This document shows positions 13,137 to 22,282 of a stretch of 64,000 nt of DNA, piece by piece. Location: positions 744,001-808,000 of the forward strand of contig NZ_SPQZ01000002.1 in NCBI RefSeq assembly GCF_004570845.1. Direction: 5' to 3'. The notes under the pieces were generated by a model. That model was not told where the DNA came from, did not search any database, and saw only the letters and a program-made list of their open reading frames with translations. This DNA comes from Orlajensenia leifsoniae (GTDB taxonomy: Bacteria > Actinomycetota > Actinomycetes > Actinomycetales > Microbacteriaceae). The position numbers and the translations under genes are program-made. The first letter of the stretch is position 1. Each line of letters opens with the position of its first letter.

Positions 13137-13892
13137 TCACCTCTCGGTGGCTCCTCTGTAGCGGTCGAGCACCAGGTCGACGAGCTCGGCCGGCGCCCCG
13201 CGCTCGGGCAGCAGCAGCGGCGCGGCCACGACATCGCCGCCGGCGTTGAGGGCGGCGTCGTAGAAGCTGCCCGGCGCCAGCAGGTAGGTGCCGACGACCA
13301 CGCGGGTTCCCGGATGCACGTCGCGCACCATGTCGATGGCATCGTGCAGGCGCGGCATGGCCGCCGCGATGAATCCCACCGTGACGGGACGACCGAGTCG
13401 CACGGCGAGACGGCGTCCCGTCTCGAAGCATTCGCGCACAGCACGCGCGTCGCTGGAGCCTGCCGCGGCGAGCACCACGGAGTCCGCTGCGGTGAGTCCG
13501 GAGTCCTCGATCCGCTCGGCCAGAACCTGCACCAGGCGGTCGTCCGGCCCGAGCTCGTCTGCCAGCTCGGCGCCGATGCGCTCGAGCCTCTCGAGTCCCT
13601 TGGCGATGCCCGTGCGCATATGGAAGCCCGCGGAGAGCACGAGCGGCAGGATGACGGCGTGCTCGCCCGTCACGAAACCGGCGAGTGCCTCGGCGAGGTC
13701 GGTGTGCTGCACGTCGAGGAACGCGATGCTGACGTCGTGTCCCGGGAGTGCCTCGGCGACGGCATCGACGAGCTGCATGATCCCGGCGCGATTGGCCAGC
13801 GATGGGGCTCCGTGTGTGATGGCCAGGAGCACGAGGGTCTCGGCCGTGCCCACGGCGGAATCATCCTCGACTCGCGCCACGGACTCCCCCAC
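13137..13892 (-). CDS. Sirohydrochlorin chelatase-like protein (CbiX family), copy 1
   Basis: CbiX/SirB-type chelatase expected to insert Fe2+ into sirohydrochlorin, the last step of siroheme synthesis for NirB. The 251-aa protein has two CbiX half-domains. The active-site His residues are in LAITHGAP near the N-terminus and SAGFHMRTG; later blocks [11 protein letters not shown] and GTYLLAPGSF match copy 2 (14782-15516). The GTG at 13892 has GGGGTGAG upstream; a second GTG at 13880 is an alternative. The gene has its own copy of the island's operator 54 to 96 nt upstream and is separated from copy 2 by trmD. Confidence 0.85.
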   Translation of the reverse strand: MGESVARVEDDSAVGTAETLVLLAITHGAPSLANRAGIMQLVDAVAEALPGHDVSIAFLDVQHTDLAEALAGFVTGEHAVILPLVLSAGFHMRTGIAKGLERLERIGAELADELGPDDRLVQVLAERIEDSGLTAADSVVLAAAGSSDARAVRECFETGRRLAVRLGRPVTVGFIAAAMPRLHDAIDMVRDVHPGTRVVVGTYLLAPGSFYDAALNAGGDVVAAPLLLPERGAPAELVDLVLDRYRGATER

Positions 13893-13945
13893 GCACTCAC
13901 CCCGAGACTGCCGTGTGCGCGAGAGACGCGCACTTCCTGCTCTCG

Positions 13946-13988
13946 AAACTAGGCAGAGCGTGTTTCGCGGACGGCACCTGTGTGTTTC
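13946..13988 (-). promoter_or_regulatory. Operator-promoter of cbiX1 (GAAAC-n17-GAAAC-n10-TAGTTT)
   Basis: Reading the minus strand, GAAAC at 13988-13984 and GAAAC at 13966-13962 lie 22 bp apart, followed by exactly 10 nt and the -10-like TAGTTT at 13951-13946. The half-sites sit within a visible direct repeat CGCGAAACAC. The predicted leader is about 46 nt. The same layout occurs at the nirD, nirB and narK promoters. No -35 consensus is evident, which points to an activator. Confidence 0.6.
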
Positions 13989-14054
13989 GCGTTGATGAAT
14001 GATGCCGGATGCCGCACCCGACGGCGCGCGAAGCCCCCGATGGCGGGCAGCGCG

Positions 14055-14750
14055 TCAGGCCGGCGGGAGCAGATCGGGGCGCACCCGCTGCGTGCGCTCG
14101 ACGCGCTGCTCGTGGCGCCAGCGCTCGATCGCGCCGTGGTTTCCGCTCAGCAGCACCGGAGGCACGTCGAGGCCGCGCCAGGCCGACGGCTTCGTGTAGC
14201 TCGGGTACTCGAGCAGCGCTCCCTCGTGCGACTCCTCGACGAGGCTCTCCGGATTGCCGACGACGCCGGGGATGAGGCGCCCGACGGCCTCGACCATGGC
14301 CATGACCGCCACCTCGCCTCCGTTCAGCACGTAGTCCCCGAGACTGACGAGCTCGACCCTGATGCGCTCCGAGTAGTGGTCGACGACGCGCTGGTCGATG
14401 CCCTCGTAGCGACCGCAGGCGAAGATGATGTGCTCCTCCTCCGCCAGCTCGCGCGCCGTGGTCTGCACGAAGCGCGTTCCGGCCGGCGACGGCACGATGA
14501 GCAGCGGGTCGGCGGCATCCGTCGACTCCAGGATCGAGTCGATGGCCTCGCCCCACGGTTCCGGCTTCATCACCATGCCGGCCCCGCCGCCGTACGGGGT
14601 GTCGTCGACGGTGCGGTGCCGATCGTGGGTGAAGTCGCGGAGGTCGTGCACGCGCAGGTCGAGCAATCCGGTGCCGCGGGCCTTGCCCAGCAGCGAGATG
14701 TCGAGCACCCCGAAGAAGTCCGGGAAGATCGTGACGATGTCGACGCGCAT
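14055..14750 (-). CDS. trmD: tRNA (guanine-37-N1)-methyltransferase
   Basis: Makes m1G37 in tRNAs and prevents frameshifting; normally essential. The 231-aa SPOUT-fold protein begins [20 protein letters not shown], with [28 protein letters not shown] and [13 protein letters not shown] forming the knotted SAM site. Its usual partners rimM and rplS are 13.5 kb and 2.6 kb away. It lies 31 nt after cbiX2, so it may be read from the nirD promoter, but a leaderless start is also possible (TAGACT 7 nt before the ATG, no ribosome binding site). Confidence 0.97.
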
Positions 14751-14757
14751 GGGATCG

Positions 14758-14763
14758 AGTCTA
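14758..14763 (-). promoter_or_regulatory. Candidate leaderless -10 box of trmD
   Basis: TAGACT on the minus strand is followed by 7 nt and the trmD ATG, the spacing expected if transcription begins at the A of the start codon. There is no ribosome binding site in the 31-nt gap, which fits leaderless translation. No -35 motif was recognised inside the end of cbiX2. Confidence 0.3.
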
Positions 14764-14781
14764 CGAGTCGGTCCCGGTGCC

Positions 14782-15516
14782 TCAGGCCGCGACGACCTCC
14801 TGCGCGAGCGCTGCCCTGCAGGCGGCGTCGTAGCGGTCGACCACGATGTCGACGAGCTCGGTGGGCGGCGCCTCCCCTGCGATGAGCAGCGGGGCGGTCA
14901 CGACATCGGCGCCGGCGTCCCCGACGAGATCGGCGAAGTAGCCGGGGGCCAGCAGGTAGGTGCTCACGACGACGCGTGAGAGCGGATGCACGGCGCGTAC
15001 CATGGCGACGGCATCCGGGAGCCGTGGCGTCGCGGCCGACAGGAAGCCGACGTTGACCGGTCGGCCGAGGGCAGCGGCCAGGCGCCGTCCCATCTCCCGG
15101 CAGTCCGCGACGGCGCGGGCGTCGCTGGAGCCCGCCGCCGCGAGCACGATGCGATCGTTCGGCCGCAGGCCGACCTCGCGCAGTCGCTGTGCGAGCACGG
15201 CCACGAGCCTGTCGTCGGGGCCGAGGGCTGGGGCGAGCACAGTGTCGCGGGACTGATCCGAGGCGATCTCCCGTCTGAGGTCGACGTGCACGTGGTAGCC
15301 GGCCGAGAGCAGCAGCGGAACGACCACGGCCGGAACGCCGTCGGCGAGGGACGACAGCGATACGGGAACGTCGGGTTGCTGAACGTCGACGAACCCGCCG
15401 GCCACGGCCGAACCGGGCAGCGTGTCGCCGACGCCGGCCACCAGGCGCGCGACGGCGTCCTGGCCCTCGGGCGATGACGTGCCGTGAGACACGGCGAGAA
15501 GGGCCGGCGCGCTCAC
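14782..15516 (-). CDS. Sirohydrochlorin chelatase-like protein (CbiX family), copy 2
   Basis: Second CbiX-type chelatase, 244 aa, clearly a paralogue of the 13137-13892 gene: shared blocks include [22 protein letters not shown] in near-identical form and TYLLAPG. Active-site His candidates are in AVSHGTSS and SAGYHVHVD. The GTG at 15516 was chosen because it overlaps the nirD stop (GTGA) and homology begins at once. Probably co-translated with nirD and used to make siroheme for NirB. Confidence 0.88.
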
Positions 15517-15941
15517 AGGGGCAGCTCCACCTCGATCATGCCGCCGACCACCCGCGTGCGGAAGGTCTGCAGGACGAGGGCAGGGTTGGTGAAGCATTCG
15601 CCTGTCGCGAGGTCGTAGACCTCCTTGTGCAGGGGCGACGCCACGGTGGGACGCTCGCCACGCGACCCGACGATGCCGCGGGCCATGACGGGTGCGTCCG
15701 TGTGCGGATCCTGGTGGGAGACGGCGTAGATCTCCTCGCCCGAGACCAGGAAGAGGGCGATCTGGCGGGCCCGCAGCAGGGCGGCCTCACCCCACGACGG
15801 CTCCAGGTCGGCGACGGCGCAGGCGGGCTCCCAGACGCTCGTCATGCTGTCGGTCGAAGAGGGGCCGGTCGTGCTCGCCCCTGGCGCGCCGACATCCGTC
15901 ACGATCGCCTCGTGCTCAGCCAGAGCTGTCGGTGCATTCAT
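15513..15941 (-). CDS. nirD: Nitrite reductase small subunit NirD
   Basis: Small partner of NirB in assimilatory NADH-dependent nitrite reduction to ammonium. About 142 aa. The Rieske-like beta fold is seen from SVWEPACAVADLEPSWGEAA to the C-terminus, with AVSHQDP, MARGIVGSRG and VASPLHKEVYDL. The Cys/His cluster ligands of true Rieske proteins are missing, which is normal for NirD. The start at 15941 (MNAPTALAEH) has GGGG 9 nt upstream; ATGs at 15950 and further downstream (MTSVWEP) are alternatives. Divergent from nirB across a 222-nt region holding two operators, and overlaps cbiX2 by 4 nt. Confidence 0.88.
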   Translation of the reverse strand: MNAPTALAEHEAIVTDVGAPGASTTGPSSTDSMTSVWEPACAVADLEPSWGEAALLRARQIALFLVSGEEIYAVSHQDPHTDAPVMARGIVGSRGERPTVASPLHKEVYDLATGECFTNPALVLQTFRTRVVGGMIEVELPL

Positions 15942-15991
15942 GGTGCGCATCCCCACCGGCGCCACCGCCGTCGAAAAGGTTGGTGCTACTC

Positions 15992-16034
15992 ACGTTAGGC
16001 ACCCTGTGTTTCCCCAGTCTCGTCGCGGTGTTAC
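15992..16034 (-). promoter_or_regulatory. Operator-promoter of nirD-cbiX2 (GTAAC-n17-GAAAC-n10-TAACGT)
   Basis: Minus strand: GTAAC at 16034-16030, GAAAC at 16012-16008 (22 bp apart), 10 nt, then TAACGT at 15997-15992. The predicted leader to the 15941 start is about 44 nt. Beyond the half-sites it matches the nirB and narK copies at further positions: A after GTAAC, C at motif position 8, G at 11, C at 18 or 19, and GG just before AAAC. Confidence 0.65.
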
Positions 16035-16095
16035 CCCTGTGTGAAAGAGACCTCACACCGCGATTCCATCATGGTGCGGGAAACGTTCGTTCGCG

Positions 16096-16138
16096 GTTAC
16101 ATCGTGGTCGTTCCGGGGAAACGGCGGCTTCCTAGGCT
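16096..16138 (+). promoter_or_regulatory. Operator-promoter of nirB-cobA-nnaR (GTTAC-n17-GAAAC-n10-TAGGCT)
   Basis: Plus strand: GTTAC at 16096-16100, GAAAC at 16118-16122 (22 bp apart), 10 nt, then TAGGCT at 16133-16138. A start near 16145 gives a 19-nt leader that contains the GGGGAGG ribosome binding site of nirB. One more GAAAC lies at 16080-16084, outside the shared spacing. Mirror arrangement to the nirD operator 62 bp away. Confidence 0.65.
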
Positions 16139-16163
16139 CTCGGCAGAGGCTGGGGAGGTCCGC

Positions 16164-18749
16164 ATGTCAGAGAACGCAATCGCGCCGCGCGAAGTGGTGA
16201 TCGTCGGGGGTGGACCGGCCGCGCACCGTCTGGCCGACGCCCTGCACTCCCGAGACGACGAGCGCGCGGTGCACGTCACCGTCGTGTCAGAGGAGCCTCA
16301 CCTCCCCTACGACCGCGTGGCGCTGAGCAAGCGGCTCGACGGAACGACCGACCTCACGCTGGAGCCGACGAGCGTCTGGGACGACGACCACGTGTCGCTG
16401 CTTCTCGGCGAGCGTGCCGAGAGCATCGATCTCGAAGCCGGAACCGTCACGACGGCATCCGGCCGCGCCATCGGCTGGGACGACCTCGTCTTCGCCACGG
16501 GCTCCAGCGCACCCGTTCCCGAGATCCCGGGCTCCGAGCTGGCCAAGGTCTACCGCACGATCGACGACGTCGACTGGCTGGTCGCCGAGGTCGACAGGCT
16601 GGCGGTGGCCCTCGGCCGCCCGGCGAGAGTGCTCGTCGCCGGCGGCGGACTGCTCGGACTCGAGGCCGCCGGTGGTCTCGCACGTCGGGGCGCCGATGCC
16701 GCCGTCGTGCACTCGGGATCCTGGCTCATGTCGGCCCAGCTGGACGAGGGCGCCGGGCGCGCCCTCGGACGCATCATCTCGAGCCAGGGCATCGCCCTGC
16801 ACCTGGGTACGCGCCCGCGCGCCATCGAAAGCGACGAGAGCGGCGCGGTCACCCGCGTGGTGTTCTCGAGTGGGCAGTCCGCCGACGTCGACATCATGAT
16901 CTTCGCCATCGGCATCAGTCCCCGCGACGAGCTCGCTGCAGCAGTCGGTCTCGAACTCGGACCCCGCGGTGGCGTGGCCATCGGAACCGACTGCCGCTCG
17001 TCGCATCCGCGGGTCTGGGCCATCGGCGAGGTCGCCTCGTTCGACGGGCGCTGCACGGGCCTGGTCGCACCGGCCAACGCCATGGCCGAGGTCGTCGCCG
17101 ACCGCCTGCTGGGCGGGGCCGCAGAGTTCACCACCGTCGACGACGCCACGAAGCTCAAGCTCTCGGGCGTCGACGTCGCGAGCTTCGGCGACGCTCTCGC
17201 CCGCACCGAGCACGCCCTCGAGATCGTCTACGCCGATCCGGCCCGAGGGCTGTACCAGAAGCTCGTGATGACGGATGACGCCAAGACGCTGCTCGGCGGC
17301 ATCTTCGTCGGAGACGCATCGCCGTACGCGTCGCTGCGCCCCCTGCTCGGCAGCGAGCTGTCGAACGAGCCGGCCGCCTACCTGTCCGCGGCGGGGATGG
17401 AACCGCCGGCCGGCGACGAGCTGCCCGCCGAGGCCCTCGTGTGCGCCTGCAACAACGTCGCAGCCGGGACCGTGCGCGACTGGGTCAACGGCGTGCACGG
17501 CGACGCCTGCACCGACCTGGGTGAGCTCAAGGCCTGCTCGCGGGCCGGCACCCAGTGCGGGTCCTGTGTTCCGCTGGTCAAGAAGATCCTCGAGAGCGAG
17601 CTGTCGAAGTCGGGCATCGCCGTGTCCCGCGCCCTCTGCGAGCATTTCGCACTCTCGCGTCAGGAACTGTTCGAGTCGGTGCGCGTCACCGGGCTCACCT
17701 CCTTCGACGAGATCATCGGCCGCTTCGGAACCGGCCGGGGCTGCGACGTCTGCAAGCCCGTCGTCGGCTCGATCCTGGCCAGCCAGAACGACGGCTACAT
17801 CCTCGACGGCGGACGCGGAACCCTGCAGGACACCAACGACCGTGCGATGGCCAATATGCAGAAGGACGGCACGTACTCGGTCGTCCCCCGCATCCCGGGC
17901 GGCGAGATCACCCCCGAGAAGCTCGGCGTCATCGCAGCTGTTGCCACCGAGTACGGCCTGTACACGAAGATCACCGGCGGCCAGCGCATCGACATGTTCG
18001 GCGCCCGTCTCGACCAGCTGCCCGAGATCTGGCGCAGGCTCGTCGACGCCGGCTTCGAGTCGGGTCAGGCCTACGGCAAGGCCCTGCGCAACGTGAAGAG
18101 CTGCGTCGGATCGACCTGGTGCCGGTACGGGGTGCAGGACGCCGTCGGCATGGCGGTCGAGCTCGAACTGCGCTACCGGGGCCTCCGCGCCCCGCACAAG
18201 TTCAAGTTCGGCGTCTCGGGTTGCGCCCGCGAGTGCGCCGAGGCTCGCGGCAAGGACGTCGGCATCATCGCGACGGAGAAGGGCTGGAACATGTACGTCG
18301 GCGGCAACGGCGGATTCCAGCCCGCTCACGCCCAGCTGCTCGTGAGCGATCTCGACGACGAGACCCTCATCAAGTACATCGACCGCTACATGATGTACTA
18401 CATCCGCACCGCCGATCGCCTGCAGCGCACAGCACGCTGGATGGAGGAGATCGAGGGCGGACTCGAGCACGTCTACGACGTCGTCGTGAACGACTCGCTC
18501 GGCCTGGCCGACGAACTCGAGGCGGCCATGGCCAAGCACATCGACGGCTACGAGGACGAGTGGGCGGCCACCCTGGCCGACCCCGAGAGGCTGCGCCGAT
18601 TCCGCAGCTTCGTGAACGCGCCGAACACCCCCGACCCGAGCGTCGCGCGCGTCATGGAACGTGGTCAGGCGCGCCCCGCCCGGGCAGACGAAGTAGCCTC
18701 GGAACGGGTCGTGCTCAGCGGCCCGCGCATTCCGATCCGAGGAGAGTGA
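16164..18749 (+). CDS. nirB: Assimilatory nitrite reductase large subunit NirB
   Basis: NAD(P)H-dependent siroheme nitrite reductase, 861 aa. Domains in order: FAD/NAD-binding reductase (VVIVGGGPAAHRLAD near residue 10; second dinucleotide site VLVAGGGLLGLEAA), two BFD-like [2Fe-2S] segments (VCACNNV ... AGTQCGSC, then GRGCDVC), a ferredoxin-like nitrite/sulfite reductase half domain, and the 4Fe-4S/siroheme site with Cys in CVGSTWC and SGCARECAEARGKD. The ATG at 16164 follows GGGGAGG by 5 nt; the frame is open farther upstream without a better start. It ends 1 nt before cobA. Confidence 0.96.
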   Translation: MSENAIAPREVVIVGGGPAAHRLADALHSRDDERAVHVTVVSEEPHLPYDRVALSKRLDGTTDLTLEPTSVWDDDHVSLLLGERAESIDLEAGTVTTASGRAIGWDDLVFATGSSAPVPEIPGSELAKVYRTIDDVDWLVAEVDRLAVALGRPARVLVAGGGLLGLEAAGGLARRGADAAVVHSGSWLMSAQLDEGAGRALGRIISSQGIALHLGTRPRAIESDESGAVTRVVFSSGQSADVDIMIFAIGISPRDELAAAVGLELGPRGGVAIGTDCRSSHPRVWAIGEVASFDGRCTGLVAPANAMAEVVADRLLGGAAEFTTVDDATKLKLSGVDVASFGDALARTEHALEIVYADPARGLYQKLVMTDDAKTLLGGIFVGDASPYASLRPLLGSELSNEPAAYLSAAGMEPPAGDELPAEALVCACNNVAAGTVRDWVNGVHGDACTDLGELKACSRAGTQCGSCVPLVKKILESELSKSGIAVSRALCEHFALSRQELFESVRVTGLTSFDEIIGRFGTGRGCDVCKPVVGSILASQNDGYILDGGRGTLQDTNDRAMANMQKDGTYSVVPRIPGGEITPEKLGVIAAVATEYGLYTKITGGQRIDMFGARLDQLPEIWRRLVDAGFESGQAYGKALRNVKSCVGSTWCRYGVQDAVGMAVELELRYRGLRAPHKFKFGVSGCARECAEARGKDVGIIATEKGWNMYVGGNGGFQPAHAQLLVSDLDDETLIKYIDRYMMYYIRTADRLQRTARWMEEIEGGLEHVYDVVVNDSLGLADELEAAMAKHIDGYEDEWAATLADPERLRRFRSFVNAPNTPDPSVARVMERGQARPARADEVASERVVLSGPRIPIRGE

Positions 18750-18750
18750 C

Positions 18751-19542
18751 ATGGCGGATGCCGCAACCGCACCCGGCCGCGTCACCCTCGTGGGCGGCGG
18801 TCCCGGCAGTGAGGAGCTGCTCACCGTCGGCGCCGTCGAGGCCCTGATCACGGCCGACGTCGTGCTCTACGACAGGCTCGCTCCCCACACCCGTCTGGCG
18901 TCTCTGGCGCCCGACGCCGTGCTCATCGACGTCGGCAAGACCCCGGGACATCATCCGGTCTCGCAGACGGGCATCGAGGAGCTCATCGTCGAGCACGCCC
19001 TCGCCGGATCCGACGTCGTGCGCCTCAAGGGCGGCGACGTCTACGTCTTCGGACGCGGAAGCGAGGAGGTGCTCGCGTGTCACCGTGCCGGCATCCCGGT
19101 CACCGTCATCTCGGGCGTGAGCAGCGCCATCGCCGTGCCTGCGGCGGCGGGCATCCCCCTCACGCACCGCGGCGTCAGCCGCATGTTCACGGTCGTCTCC
19201 GGCCACGCACCGCTCTCCGACGACGAACTGCTCCACCTCGCCGGCCTCGGCAGCACCATCGTGGTGCTCATGGGCGTCAACACGCTCCCCCACTTCAGCG
19301 CCGGCCTGCTCCGCCAGGGAATGAGCCCCGAGATGCCGGTGGCCGTCATCGAGCGCGGCTTCAGCCCCGACCAGCGCACCACCATCGCCGACCTCGGTAG
19401 CATCGTCAGCGTGGCCATCCGATCCGGCGTCTCCTCCCCCGCGGTACTCGTGGTGGGAGAGGTCGTGCGACTCGCCCACACCGGTGACCTGACCGCTGCG
19501 GAGATGATGGCTCGCGCCGGCCGACTCTCGGTGCTCGGCTGA
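18751..19542 (+). CDS. cobA: Uroporphyrinogen-III C-methyltransferase
   Basis: SAM-dependent methylation of uroporphyrinogen III to precorrin-2, the branch point to siroheme. The 263-aa protein has the family blocks VTLVGGGPGSEELLTVGAVEAL, VVLYDRL, VRLKGGDVYVFGRG, VISGVSSAIAVPAAAGIPLTHRG and VLMGVNTL. There is no fused CysG/Met8 dehydrogenase domain. It follows nirB by 1 nt with GGAGAG as ribosome binding site and overlaps the next gene by 1 nt (TGATG), so the three are one operon. Confidence 0.95.
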   Translation: MADAATAPGRVTLVGGGPGSEELLTVGAVEALITADVVLYDRLAPHTRLASLAPDAVLIDVGKTPGHHPVSQTGIEELIVEHALAGSDVVRLKGGDVYVFGRGSEEVLACHRAGIPVTVISGVSSAIAVPAAAGIPLTHRGVSRMFTVVSGHAPLSDDELLHLAGLGSTIVVLMGVNTLPHFSAGLLRQGMSPEMPVAVIERGFSPDQRTTIADLGSIVSVAIRSGVSSPAVLVVGEVVRLAHTGDLTAAEMMARAGRLSVLG

Positions 19543-20672
19543 TGCCCGATGCCCCGGATGCCGTTCCCGGGTTCCGCCCGGACCAGCTGACGGGCTTCCG
19601 CATCGGCGTGACCAGCGATCGCCGCTCGGCCGACCTCATCGAGGCGCTCGAGCGCCGCGGCGCCGTCGTCACCCACGCCCCGACGCTCAAGATCACCAAC
19701 GCGCACCTGGACGAGCCCGTCATCGCAGACACCCGCGCCATCATCGCCGCGAAGCCCGACGTGCTGCTGGCGACGACGGCGTACGGCATCCGTCGCTGGT
19801 TCGAGGTGGCCGACACGGCAGGTCTCGGACACGAGCTCACCGAGGCACTCGAGTCGACGGCCATCCTGGTGCGCGGTCCCAAGGCTCGAGGCGGCATCCG
19901 GGCCGCCGGGCTCAACGACGCCGGCATGAGTCCGCAGGAGACGACGGAATCCCTCGTCGGCATGGTGCTCGACGAGTATCCGACCGGTCTCACCATCGCC
20001 GTCCAGATGCACGGATTCCTCGACGCCGCCCAACTCGAGCGCCTGCGCGACGTGCACGCCGAGGTGCTCACCGTCGCCCCCTATCGCTGGACCCCGCCGG
20101 AGCAGAACGACGATCGGGTGCGGAGGCTCATCGAGGCGGTCTGCGCGGCCCAGCTCGACTGCGTCACCTTCACCAGCGCGCCGGCGGTGAACGCCCTGTT
20201 CCACGGGGCGGAGGAGATGGGCGTGCTCGACCAGCTCGTCGACGCCCTGCGCGGCCCCGTCGTGGCCGCTGCCGTCGGCCCCGTGACTGCCGCGCCGCTG
20301 ATCGCGGCCGGGATCGAGCCCATCCAGCCCGACCGATTCAGGATGGGCGCCCTGATCAGGCTGGTGTGCGAGCACCTCGAGCAGAACCGGATCCAGCGCG
20401 TCACCACGCAGCATGGAGTGCTGGAGCTCCGCGGCACCGTCGTCGACCTGCCCGTCGGCCGCATCCCACTGGCGCCGACGGCTCTCGTGCTGCTCAGGGC
20501 CCTGGTCGCCGCGAACGGGTCGGTCGTGACACGCGACCACCTCGCCGGGCTGCTGCCGGGCACTCCCGACGAGCACGCCGTCGAGGTATCCATGAGCCGT
20601 CTGCGTCAGCTGCTGAGGACGCCGGGACTCATCGCGACTGTCGTGAAGCGCGGGTACAGGCTCGACGTCTGA
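19542..20672 (+). CDS. nnaR: Uroporphyrinogen-III synthase-like regulator with OmpR-type DNA-binding domain (NnaR-like)
   Basis: 376-aa fusion of a HemD-like bilobed domain (about residues 17-265: GFRIGVTSDRRSADLIEALERRGA, CVTFTSAPAV, VAAAVGPVTAAPL) to a C-terminal winged helix of the OmpR type (HAVEVSMSRLRQLL ... TVVKRGYRLDV). This is the architecture of NnaR of mycobacteria and streptomycetes, which activates nitrate and nitrite assimilation genes together with GlnR. The HemD half may sense a tetrapyrrole or retain synthase activity; that is open. Last gene of the nirB operon, so it would control its own synthesis if it binds the operator at 16096-16122. Confidence 0.85.
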   Translation: MPDAPDAVPGFRPDQLTGFRIGVTSDRRSADLIEALERRGAVVTHAPTLKITNAHLDEPVIADTRAIIAAKPDVLLATTAYGIRRWFEVADTAGLGHELTEALESTAILVRGPKARGGIRAAGLNDAGMSPQETTESLVGMVLDEYPTGLTIAVQMHGFLDAAQLERLRDVHAEVLTVAPYRWTPPEQNDDRVRRLIEAVCAAQLDCVTFTSAPAVNALFHGAEEMGVLDQLVDALRGPVVAAAVGPVTAAPLIAAGIEPIQPDRFRMGALIRLVCEHLEQNRIQRVTTQHGVLELRGTVVDLPVGRIPLAPTALVLLRALVAANGSVVTRDHLAGLLPGTPDEHAVEVSMSRLRQLLRTPGLIATVVKRGYRLDV

Positions 20673-20760
20673 GTCTGGGCCCTGGCGCTCGGCCCGTGCT
20701 CCCGCCCGATCGAGTTCTCACAGCAGCATCCGTGCGCGGTGAGAAGCCGGTATCGCAGGG

Positions 20761-20803
20761 TTTACACCCGGCACGGCCTGCGGAAACACGCGCTCGTTAG
20801 CGT
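20761..20803 (+). promoter_or_regulatory. Operator-promoter of narK operon (TTTAC-n17-GAAAC-n10-TAGCGT)
   Basis: Plus strand: TTTAC at 20761-20765, GAAAC at 20783-20787 (22 bp apart), 10 nt, then TAGCGT at 20798-20803. A start near 20810 gives a leader of about 45 nt to narK. It lies in the 182-nt gap after nnaR and would let the transport/nitrate reductase operon respond with the nirB operon. Confidence 0.65.
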
Positions 20804-20854: not shown

Positions 20855-22282
20855 ATGACGAGCACAGTGACAGGCACCGCCCCCACAGGAAGCCCCACCG
20901 GGATCGACTCCGGTACCGCCGCCGGCAACGCGTCGTCGGAGCTCGTCCATCGCCCGGGGCGGTGGATCGACAACTGGAATCCCGAGGACGACGCGCAGTG
21001 GACGGGGCCGGGACGCCCCATCGCGCGCCGCAACCTGCAGTGGTCGATCTTCGCCGAGTTCCTGGGCTTCGTGGTCTGGCAGCTCTGGAGCATCGTCGTC
21101 GTCGCGCTTCCCGCCGCCGGCTTCACCCTGAGCACCGGGGAGATCTTCTGGCTCATCTCGATCCCGAGCCTCGTCGGCGCCACCCTGCGCTTCCCGTACT
21201 CCTTCGTCGTCGCGAAGGTGGGCGGCCGCACCTGGACCATCATCTCGGCCGGTCTCCTGCTGCTGCCGACCATCGCCCTGGCGACGGTCGTCGGCAATCC
21301 CGACACCCCCTTCGCCGTCCTCCTCGGAGTCGCGGCCCTCGCCGGATTCGGCGGAGGCAACTTCGCCAGTTCCATGTCGAACATCACCTACTTCTACCCG
21401 CAACGGGAGAAGGGCTGGGCGCTCGGCCTGAACGCGGCCGGAGGCAACCTGGGAGCATCCGTCGCCCAGTTCGTCGTTCCGATCGTCATCACGATCGGAG
21501 CAGGCGCCGCTCTCAACCTGCCGCTCGCCGGCTGGGTGTGGGTGCCCCTCATCCTGCTCGCGATGTTCGGCGCCTACCGCTACATGGACAACCTGTCGTC
21601 GGCGAAGGCCGACTTCGCGGGTTCGGCCGCGGCCCTCCGCGAACCGCACCTCTGGCTGCTGGCGTTGCTTTACATCGGCACCTTCGGATCGTTCATCGGC
21701 TTCGCCAGCGTCTTCCCGAAGCTCATCGCCGACCAGTTCCCCGAGTTCTCGACCTTCGCCGTGGGCGGGGCGGCCATCTCGCTGGCCTTCCTCGGCGCGC
21801 TCGTCGGCTCGCTCGCCCGGCCCTATGGCGGACGCCTGGCCGACAGGTTCGGCGGCGCGCGCATCACGATGACCGCATTCGCCGTCATGGCCGCCGGCGC
21901 CCTGCTCGTGGTCTGGACGCTGCCCCTCGGCAACTTCTGGATCTTCCTCGGTTGCTTCCTGCTGCTGTTCGTCGCCACCGGCGTCGGAAACGGTGCCACC
22001 TACAGGATGATCCCGACGGTGTTCGCGGCCCGGGCCGGCGCAGCGCACGGCGGTCCCAGCATCACGACGCAGCGCAAGGCTGCGGCGGCCCTGGGCCTGA
22101 TCTCGGCGATCGGCGCCTACGGCGGCTTCCTCGTGCCGCAGATCCTCAACCTGTCGCAGGCGACCTCCGGCGGCTACGCCAACGCCTTCTACGGATTCGT
22201 CGCCGCCTACGTCGTGCTGCTCGCCGTCACGTACACCGTCTACGTGCGCCGCGGTTCCGCGCTCGCCGCCCACCGCATCTGA
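20855..22282 (+). CDS. narK: Nitrate/nitrite transporter NarK (MFS)
   Basis: Twelve-helix major facilitator importing nitrate (or exchanging nitrite), 475 aa. The nitrate-signature region GNFASSMSNITYFYPQREKG and the second glycine-rich helix LGLNAAGGNLGASVAQF mark the NNP subfamily. A cytoplasmic N-terminal extension of about 60 residues (TGTAPTGSPTGIDSG, then HRPGRWIDNWNPEDD) precedes the first helix. The ATG at 20855 follows GGGAG; a TTG at 20834 in frame lacks such a site. First gene of the narK-nitrate reductase-flavoprotein operon. Confidence 0.94.
   Translation: MTSTVTGTAPTGSPTGIDSGTAAGNASSELVHRPGRWIDNWNPEDDAQWTGPGRPIARRNLQWSIFAEFLGFVVWQLWSIVVVALPAAGFTLSTGEIFWLISIPSLVGATLRFPYSFVVAKVGGRTWTIISAGLLLLPTIALATVVGNPDTPFAVLLGVAALAGFGGGNFASSMSNITYFYPQREKGWALGLNAAGGNLGASVAQFVVPIVITIGAGAALNLPLAGWVWVPLILLAMFGAYRYMDNLSSAKADFAGSAAALREPHLWLLALLYIGTFGSFIGFASVFPKLIADQFPEFSTFAVGGAAISLAFLGALVGSLARPYGGRLADRFGGARITMTAFAVMAAGALLVVWTLPLGNFWIFLGCFLLLFVATGVGNGATYRMIPTVFAARAGAAHGGPSITTQRKAAAALGLISAIGAYGGFLVPQILNLSQATSGGYANAFYGFVAAYVVLLAVTYTVYVRRGSALAAHRI

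Follow-up and report, generated by a model that had tools for sequence, protein, structure and literature searches.

Putative NnaR and GlnR elements on a common 11-bp grid at nitrate and nitrite promoters of Orlajensenia leifsoniae

Four promoters in and around the nitrate and nitrite genes of Orlajensenia leifsoniae (Microbacteriaceae) have the same layout, which raises the question of which regulators read it and how. We analyzed positions 744,001 to 808,000 of NZ_SPQZ01000002.1 (assembly GCF_004570845.1; genome of 3.78 Mb), a stretch of 64,000 nucleotides (nt) that we call the window and in which coordinates are given. The promoters precede nirB (nitrite reductase large subunit; 16164 to 18749, plus strand), nirD (Rieske-type small subunit; 15513 to 15941, minus strand, with an ATG start chosen), narK (MFS transporter; 20855 to 22282, plus strand), and cbiX1 (13137 to 13892, minus strand). 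Adjoining narK is nnaR (19542 to 20672, plus strand), whose product joins a HEM4 domain to a DNA-binding domain of the OmpR type (Pfam HEM4, 3.1e-32; Trans_reg_C, 2.1e-10). In our judgment these are probably (roughly 0.85) GlnR-dependent promoters, those of nirD, nirB, and narK being composites to which NnaR and GlnR would bind cooperatively.

Half-sites and palindromes in the window

GlnR operators are described as four half-sites, a1-b1-a2-b2 (gTnAc-n6-GaAAc-n6-GtnAC-n6-GAAAc), in steps of 11 base pairs (bp) (review, PMC10704036). Half-sites of this type (GNNAC or GAAAC on the coding strand, at a step of 11 bp) occupy b1 and b2 at all four promoters of the window. On the plus strand, nirB has b1 GTTAC (16096 to 16100), b2 GAAAC (16118 to 16122), and a predicted −10 box TAGGCT (16133 to 16138). 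As read from the sequence, its a1 slot, GTTCG (16085 to 16089), is not a half-site, which is likewise the case in 71/75 relatives; its a2 slot, GTCGT (16107 to 16111), is degenerate, and 72/75 relatives have GNNA[C/T] at that place. On the minus strand, nirD has a1 TTCAC (16041 to 16045), b1 GTAAC (16030 to 16034), b2 GAAAC (16008 to 16012), and a predicted −10 box TAACGT (15992 to 15997). The narK promoter, on the plus strand, has a weak a1 slot, GTATC (20750 to 20754), followed by b1 TTTAC (20761 to 20765), b2 GAAAC (20783 to 20787), and a predicted −10 box TAGCGT (20798 to 20803). The cbiX1 promoter (13946 to 13999, minus strand) reads a1 TTCAT, b1 GAAAC, no a2, b2 GAAAC, and −10 TAGTTT.

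A sequence-only reading of the window had described the layout as four 43-mers, at cbiX1, nirD, nirB, and narK, and their coordinates, strands, 22-bp step, and 10-nt gap proved correct letter for letter. The core pattern, ACA-n16-GAAAC-n10-TANNNT, has 4 matches in the window versus 0 in 100 dinucleotide shuffles. Many matches unrelated to nitrogen genes would have spoken against that reading; the whole genome holds 5, namely, the four sites and one before glnA, and the reversed pattern has 0. Its picture of real, spacing-constrained promoters of the activator type, with GlnR-like half-sites and no evident −35 element, was borne out. The b1/b2 part of its layout also stands, although it had overlooked one more half-site, which precedes the first GNNAC by 11 bp. 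The additional agreements it saw at motif positions 8, 11, 18, 20, and 22 are present in the nirD, nirB, and narK copies but carry little information in relatives (Kullback-Leibler [KL] divergence of 0.07 to 0.27 bits over 154 relative sites, with a 70% G+C background); we rejected them as a conserved feature.

The element list was incomplete in another respect, since a palindrome, CTCAC-n17-GTG[A/C]G, stands 17 nt upstream of the element at nirB, narK, and nirD. It is of the type of the NnaR box of Mycobacterium smegmatis, printed as c-t-C-A-C-a/c-(16N)-t/g-G-T-G-a-g (Antczak 2018, PMC6277429); a version with a gap of 13 to 16 bp is given for promoters of Streptomyces coelicolor and Mycobacterium tuberculosis (PMC11162112). 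The narK copy, CTCAC-n17-GTGAG (20717 to 20743, no strand assigned), has perfect arms. The divergent nirD and nirB promoters have a single copy in common, CTCAC-n17-GTGCG (16052 to 16078, no strand assigned), one arm of which is GTGCG; it is read on opposite strands by nirB and nirD and is equally far from both promoters. Measured start to start, the near arm lies 22 bp from b1 and 44 bp from b2 in all three promoters. Taken alone, the palindrome is no rarer than chance in the window (CTCAC-n17-GTGNG with at most 1 mismatch; 29 matches versus 30.5 expected), and we discarded it as a stand-alone predictor. Only the composite of palindrome and GlnR frame is rarer than chance there.

Conservation of the composite

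We scanned 398 genomes, taken to be Microbacteriaceae, for the exact composite, CAC-n17-GTG-n22-AC-n17-GAAAC-n10-TANNNT. It occurs in 50 of them (78 matches; control, 0). NnaR, at a threshold of E 1e-20 or better, is present in 90/398 genomes; these include all 50 with the composite (50/50 encode NnaR, as O. leifsoniae does), and 0/308 genomes without NnaR have it. All 78 matches lie within 5,560 bp of nnaR.

Spacings were counted in the best 80 NnaR loci of named genomes (1.45 Mb), which also served for the lattice, gene-anchored, and half-site counts given below; these loci are not independent, many being from Agromyces or Cryobacterium. From CTCAC to GTGAG there is a peak at 22 bp (78 versus a median of 2 per distance, start to start, with palindromes counted on both strands). 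GTGAG to GAAAC peaks at 44 and 22 (81 and 67 versus 1), so that the distance from palindrome to GlnR motif is conserved in the family; G..AC to GAAAC peaks at 22 and then at 11 (149 and 94 versus 22), and GAAAC to TANNNT peaks at 15 (183 versus 1). Palindrome arms and half-sites thus share one 11-bp grid, and the spacing that the sequence-only reading had expected to see kept in relatives is kept in Microbacteriaceae loci.

With the 21 fixed letters of this grid scored as a lattice, and 18 taken as the threshold for a site, 149 sites scoring at least 18/21 were found in the 80 loci, whereas 60 random lattices gave a mean of 0.017 and a maximum of 1. At a threshold of 16, at least one site is present in 78/80 loci (none in L121 and L139). 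Shifting a single gap does not discriminate at thresholds of 16 and 17, where a site minus one element still passes; thresholds of 18 to 20 discriminate better, with lattices shifted at the palindrome gap or the −10 box still partly passing at 18. A gene-anchored test, in which 1-bp shifts were allowed, covered the 77 nirB, 76 nirD, and 50 narK genes of the 80 loci whose upstream regions lay inside the locus. Scores of at least 18/21 were reached upstream of 75/77 nirB, 72/76 nirD, and 39/50 narK genes. Shuffled controls, made from the first 60 of the 203 upstream regions with only base composition preserved, reached 16 at most. In 13/72 nirD promoters the b1-to-b2 step differs by one base; the rigidity of the grid is not absolute but has a tolerance of one base. 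One class count, in which cbiX1 and cbiX2 labels are blurred by paralogy, was set aside in favor of the gene-anchored and half-site tests; many sites labeled cbiX1 in it lie far upstream of the start and resemble the nirD-cbiX promoter.

The arrangement around the common palindrome is also retained. In all 76 loci holding both genes, nirB and nirD are divergent, and in 71/76 pairs one palindrome serves both promoters at scores of at least 18; 2 further pairs (L127 and L157) also share a palindrome, with one of the two promoters scoring 17. In 3 loci (L131, L137, and L144), nirD does not use the nirB palindrome. The asymmetry of the palindrome is conserved as well, the nirD-facing arm reading GTGAG in 65/72 promoters and the nirB-facing arm in 17/75.

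Outside the family, NnaR was found in 228/394 genomes of the class (E 1e-25). We scanned 54 loci from 53 genomes with NnaR, of which 48 belong to other families and the remainder to distant members of this one; they were chosen to spread over 18 families and are not a random sample. A looser scan tolerated up to 2 arm mismatches and one in b2; its results are counted by genome and by family, since some sites gave two entries, one per gap reading. The palindrome occurs together with b2 and a −10 box at 15 from b2 in 29/53 genomes (25/48 outside the family) and 13/18 families, with 0 in reversed controls. A stricter scan, in which b2 to −10 could be 14, 15, or 16, gave 17 matches, all at 15 (control, 0). 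In the looser scan, 13 of the 18 families sampled keep the frame within 1 to 2 bp. In the stricter matches the arms are 23 bp apart in 12/17 (most of them from other families) and 21 in 5/17. The usual distance between palindrome arms is 22 bp in Microbacteriaceae loci and 23 in the other families sampled, a shift that hints at a changed NnaR dimer.

The likeness of the promoters could reflect descent from duplicated promoters rather than selection on spacing, and the relatedness of the 80 loci lends this idea some substance. We regard it as extremely improbable: the spacers between elements are mostly near background (KL mostly <0.3 bits) while the elements are fixed, nirB on the one hand and nirD and narK on the other use different half-sites of the same frame in relatives, and the frame recurs in the 13 families just mentioned.

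GlnR and NnaR as candidate binders

What binds the array is best judged from glnA. The fifth match in the genome (L001:1501-1540) is followed 53 nt later by the ATG (1594) of glnA (glutamine synthetase, named by eye from its translation). The operator there reads GTAAC-ATGCCT-GAAAC-ATTTGC-GACAC-TGCAGG-GAAAC-GGCCTCCCAA-TACCCT, so that glnA, a standard GlnR target, has the full a1-b1-a2-b2 set and the same n10 to the −10 box. Since this frame is the published GlnR a-b-a-b operator, the 22/10 frame of the sequence-only reading corresponds to b1, b2, and −10 of a GlnR promoter. We read outward from 31 loci with the core pattern (L001 and L213 to L242, with no entry for L216); a glnA homologue follows in 14. 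In each of these 14, a1 reads GTAAC and b1 reads GAAAC, and a2 is NNNAC in 13/14 (b2 and the 10-nt gap being fixed by selection of the loci). Both palindrome arms are present in 0/14, and no nnaR was found in the genomes of 11/14.

These loci bear on the possibility that NnaR alone binds the whole element, GNNAC and GAAAC half-sites included, with GlnR not directly involved. The restriction of the composite to genomes with NnaR fits that idea, as does the a1 site of nirD, TTCAC, which resembles the palindrome arm CTCAC; the sequence-only reading had likewise favored NnaR as the binder of the array. The array and 10-nt gap nevertheless stand before glnA without the palindrome, mostly in genomes with no nnaR detected, the cbiX1 array is kept in a sister species (G161) in which no nnaR was found, and the array matches published GlnR boxes (PMC10704036). 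GlnR is thus the better candidate for the array. We rejected NnaR as its sole binder, and the version without any direct role for GlnR appears very unlikely.

The O. leifsoniae genome does encode GlnR. The best PDB match of this protein (L006; 228 amino acids as cut) is 8hih (E 7e-78), which we take to be the GlnR activation complex, and it also matches 4o1h, named GlnR (E 1.8e-23). Among 199 family genomes tested, 187 hold GlnR; the core pattern is present in 116/199 and its reversed control in 18/199. Three of the 12 genomes with no GlnR match carry core matches (4 in all), and the two such loci that we read (L221 and L222) have no half-site at a1 or a2. As for NnaR, a second and stronger HEM4 gene is present in the genome (182.6 bits versus 113.3 for NnaR), and the housekeeping uroporphyrinogen-III synthase may therefore be a protein other than NnaR. 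In one other member of the family, a second nnaR-like stretch (G382:C1:3865616-3866583) consists of two distinct partial matches, one of which contains an internal TGA.

Another OmpR-type regulator, such as MtrA or PhoP, might instead be the main binder of the array, as an activator or as a competing repressor. The genome has 12 Trans_reg_C matches, 11 of them over the cut-off; MtrA and GlnR motifs are described as nearly identical, with MtrA binding at nirB cited (PMC6277429), and a title on MtrA binding to GlnR boxes is among the references of the GlnR review (PMC10704036). That review names GlnR as the activator of nirB, narK, and glnA, however, and all 26 composite-bearing genomes among the 199 have GlnR; any competition by MtrA would come on top of GlnR control instead of displacing it. 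We therefore hold a primary role for MtrA or PhoP to be quite unlikely and retain GlnR as the putative binder.

Promoters controlled jointly by NnaR and GlnR, with motifs at similar spacing, have already been published. In M. smegmatis, NnaR motifs stand beside GlnR motifs at similar spacing, start sites lie downstream of the GlnR motif, and NnaR bound 3/5 promoters tested in electrophoretic mobility shift assays (PMC6277429). The narK3 and nasN promoters of Mycobacterium abscessus are among those co-regulated by NnaR and GlnR (PMC11162112), and cooperative binding of NnaR and GlnR is described for the nirB promoter of S. coelicolor (review, PMC10704036). The promoters described here resemble these systems (S. 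coelicolor nirB, narK, and nasA; M. smegmatis nirB, narK, and trHbN; M. abscessus narK3 and nasN) in having a palindrome beside a GlnR motif, similar spacing, and overlapping targets (PMC6277429, PMC11162112, PMC10704036); unlike them, they include one palindrome common to divergent nirD and nirB. The complex in which GlnR activates together with polymerase is described as having four GlnR molecules and four half-sites (review, PMC10704036), and the GlnR peak at M. tuberculosis nirB stops 2 bp short of the listed start site (PMC4950008).

With glnA-type operators, the array has in common GAAAC as the b-site and coding-strand half-sites at a step of 11 bp (PMC10704036). Unlike full operators, the nitrate promoters of relatives use three of the four half-sites (a1-b1-b2 or b1-a2-b2). 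The missing middle half-site, which the sequence-only reading had believed to be undescribed, corresponds to a published dispensable a2: at S. coelicolor amtB, a2 occupies the −35 position and is not required while b2 is (PMC5826061), and in the Amycolatopsis mediterranei nas operon a2 is likewise not required and b2 required (review, PMC10704036). The b1-b2 spacer is 16 bp in the nas operon, in contrast to 17 here (PMC10704036), and the portions of the accounts of nas and amtB available to us mention no NnaR palindrome (PMC5826061, PMC10704036).

The roles of the two proteins, their cooperativity, and activation are carried over from these relatives. By analogy, GlnR would bind b2, exactly 10 nt before the −10 box, and b1, 22 bp upstream of it, with one further half-site at a1 or a2 in relatives, and the array would span the −35 region. 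The HemD-like regulator NnaR would sit on the palindrome 17 nt further upstream at nirD, nirB, and narK. The common 11-bp grid would place NnaR and GlnR on one face of the DNA and allow them to bind cooperatively, and the single palindrome between nirD and nirB may activate in both directions. GlnR would report nitrogen limitation, and NnaR would gate the nitrate and nitrite genes, perhaps by supplying a nitrate/nitrite or tetrapyrrole signal; cbiX1 and glnA would have the GlnR part only.

Several observations weigh against this account. In the window, nirB has neither a good a1 nor a good a2, and a1 of narK is weak, so that two of the four slots are strong at each of these promoters, with b1 of narK reading TTTAC; GlnR occupancy there would thus rest on b1 and b2 plus NnaR. 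The palindrome arms are 22 bp apart here versus 23 in the printed mycobacterial palindrome, the internal gap being one base shorter (PMC6277429). The exact composite is missing from 40/90 NnaR genomes of the family, which, judged from the gene-anchored test, probably reflects letter or 1-bp changes. In that test, 11/50 narK upstream regions scored below 18, the step from near arm to b1 was 21 in 41/75 nirB promoters (22 in 34/75), and 1 of 60 random-region controls scored 19 (the remainder, ≤14). The looser scan found no match in 24/53 genomes, including all those of five families (f20, 0/3; f24, 0/4; f38, 0/2; f46, 0/1; f8, 0/1), of which f8 does have a match in the stricter scan. As for published data, NnaR did not bind the M. 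smegmatis msmeg_5360 promoter although the motif is present (PMC6277429), and GlnR chromatin immunoprecipitation sequencing in M. tuberculosis shows no obvious pattern linking site, start site, and direction of regulation (PMC4950008).

Apparently new are the palindrome common to nirD and nirB, the rigid grid, and the alternation of a1 and a2 by gene described below. In the partial texts of the NnaR and GlnR literature that we searched, we found no study of Microbacteriaceae, no divergent nirD/nirB box, no such alternation, and no exact grid, which may already be drawn in the original motif papers. The grid turns a loosely described neighborhood of NnaR and GlnR motifs into a fixed arrangement, with arms, half-sites, and −10 box spaced by multiples of roughly a helical turn, and opens cooperative contact of the two proteins to direct test. 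If the account is true, it would also explain why nirD is still regulated jointly with nirB when the two are split in these genomes.

Half-site choice by gene and the cbiX promoters

Occupancy of a1 and a2 was counted at sites scoring at least 18, selected without using either slot. Upstream of nirB, a1 reads NNNAC in 4/75 sites and a2 reads GNNA[C/T] in 72/75. The nirD sites show the converse (a1 NNNAC, 69/72; a2 GNNA[C/T], 1/72 measured from b1 and 2/72 from b2), as do those of narK (a1 NNNAC, 36/39; a2 NNNAC, 0/39). The Fisher P value for the contrast is <1e-32, which is nominal because the loci are related. In relatives, then, nirB uses b1-a2-b2 while nirD and narK use a1-b1-b2, and nirB of the window is an exception to the family pattern, with both slots unfilled. 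Seven nirB sites from other families are mixed: three have a1, b1, and b2 with NNNAC also at a2 (G697, G445, and G742), one has b1-a2-b2 (G666), and three have only b1 and b2 (G423, G510, and G522). The alternation is thus established for Microbacteriaceae only. Together with the common box, it provides a natural contrast of two promoters with one common upstream site.

A tentative interpretation for Microbacteriaceae, which we consider doubtful, is that one NnaR dimer on the single palindrome licenses two opposed GlnR promoters and that the choice between a1 and a2 acts as a code. On this scheme nirD and narK, with a perfect GTGAG arm, would need NnaR to hold GlnR at a1, whereas nirB, often with an imperfect arm, would have a compact b1-a2-b2 array that depends less on NnaR, and the two subunit genes could be tuned differently from one box.

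The cbiX1 promoter differs from the other three of the window. No NnaR palindrome was found upstream of its GlnR array, where the arm slots read TTCGC and ATCCG. The site is kept in two sister species; in one of them, G161, which belongs to the same genus and in which no nnaR was found, cbiX1 is 96% identical and the GlnR-type promoter is retained (L243, G161:C1:281000-286500). We rejected cbiX1 as a fourth NnaR target in the genus Orlajensenia, and the promoter is there best read, from its sequence, as GlnR-type only. In relatives, direct cbiX promoters have a near arm GTGAG, placed in its proper slot, without a far arm in 13/14 cases. The 13 half-box promoters are all from Agromyces, one of them a metagenome-assembled genome (L078, L080 to L084, L087 to L090, L092, L107, and L156), and the miss is from Humibacter (L125).

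At 13137 to 15516, a tRNA methyltransferase-like gene (trmD, identified by eye in translation) has a cbiX paralogue on either side; cbiX1 has its own promoter, and cbiX2 follows nirD. No known structured RNA was found in the window at the gathering threshold, and the cbiX1 leader is predicted to fold no more stably than shuffled sequences (z = −0.54). It contains an inverted repeat, GTGCGCG-TCTCT-CGCGCAC (13915 to 13933, minus strand), that is present in 3/3 aligned species. From the promoter through the leader (13881 to 14016), 134/136 positions are identical in one sister species (G025), while longer flanking alignments average 84 to 89% identity.

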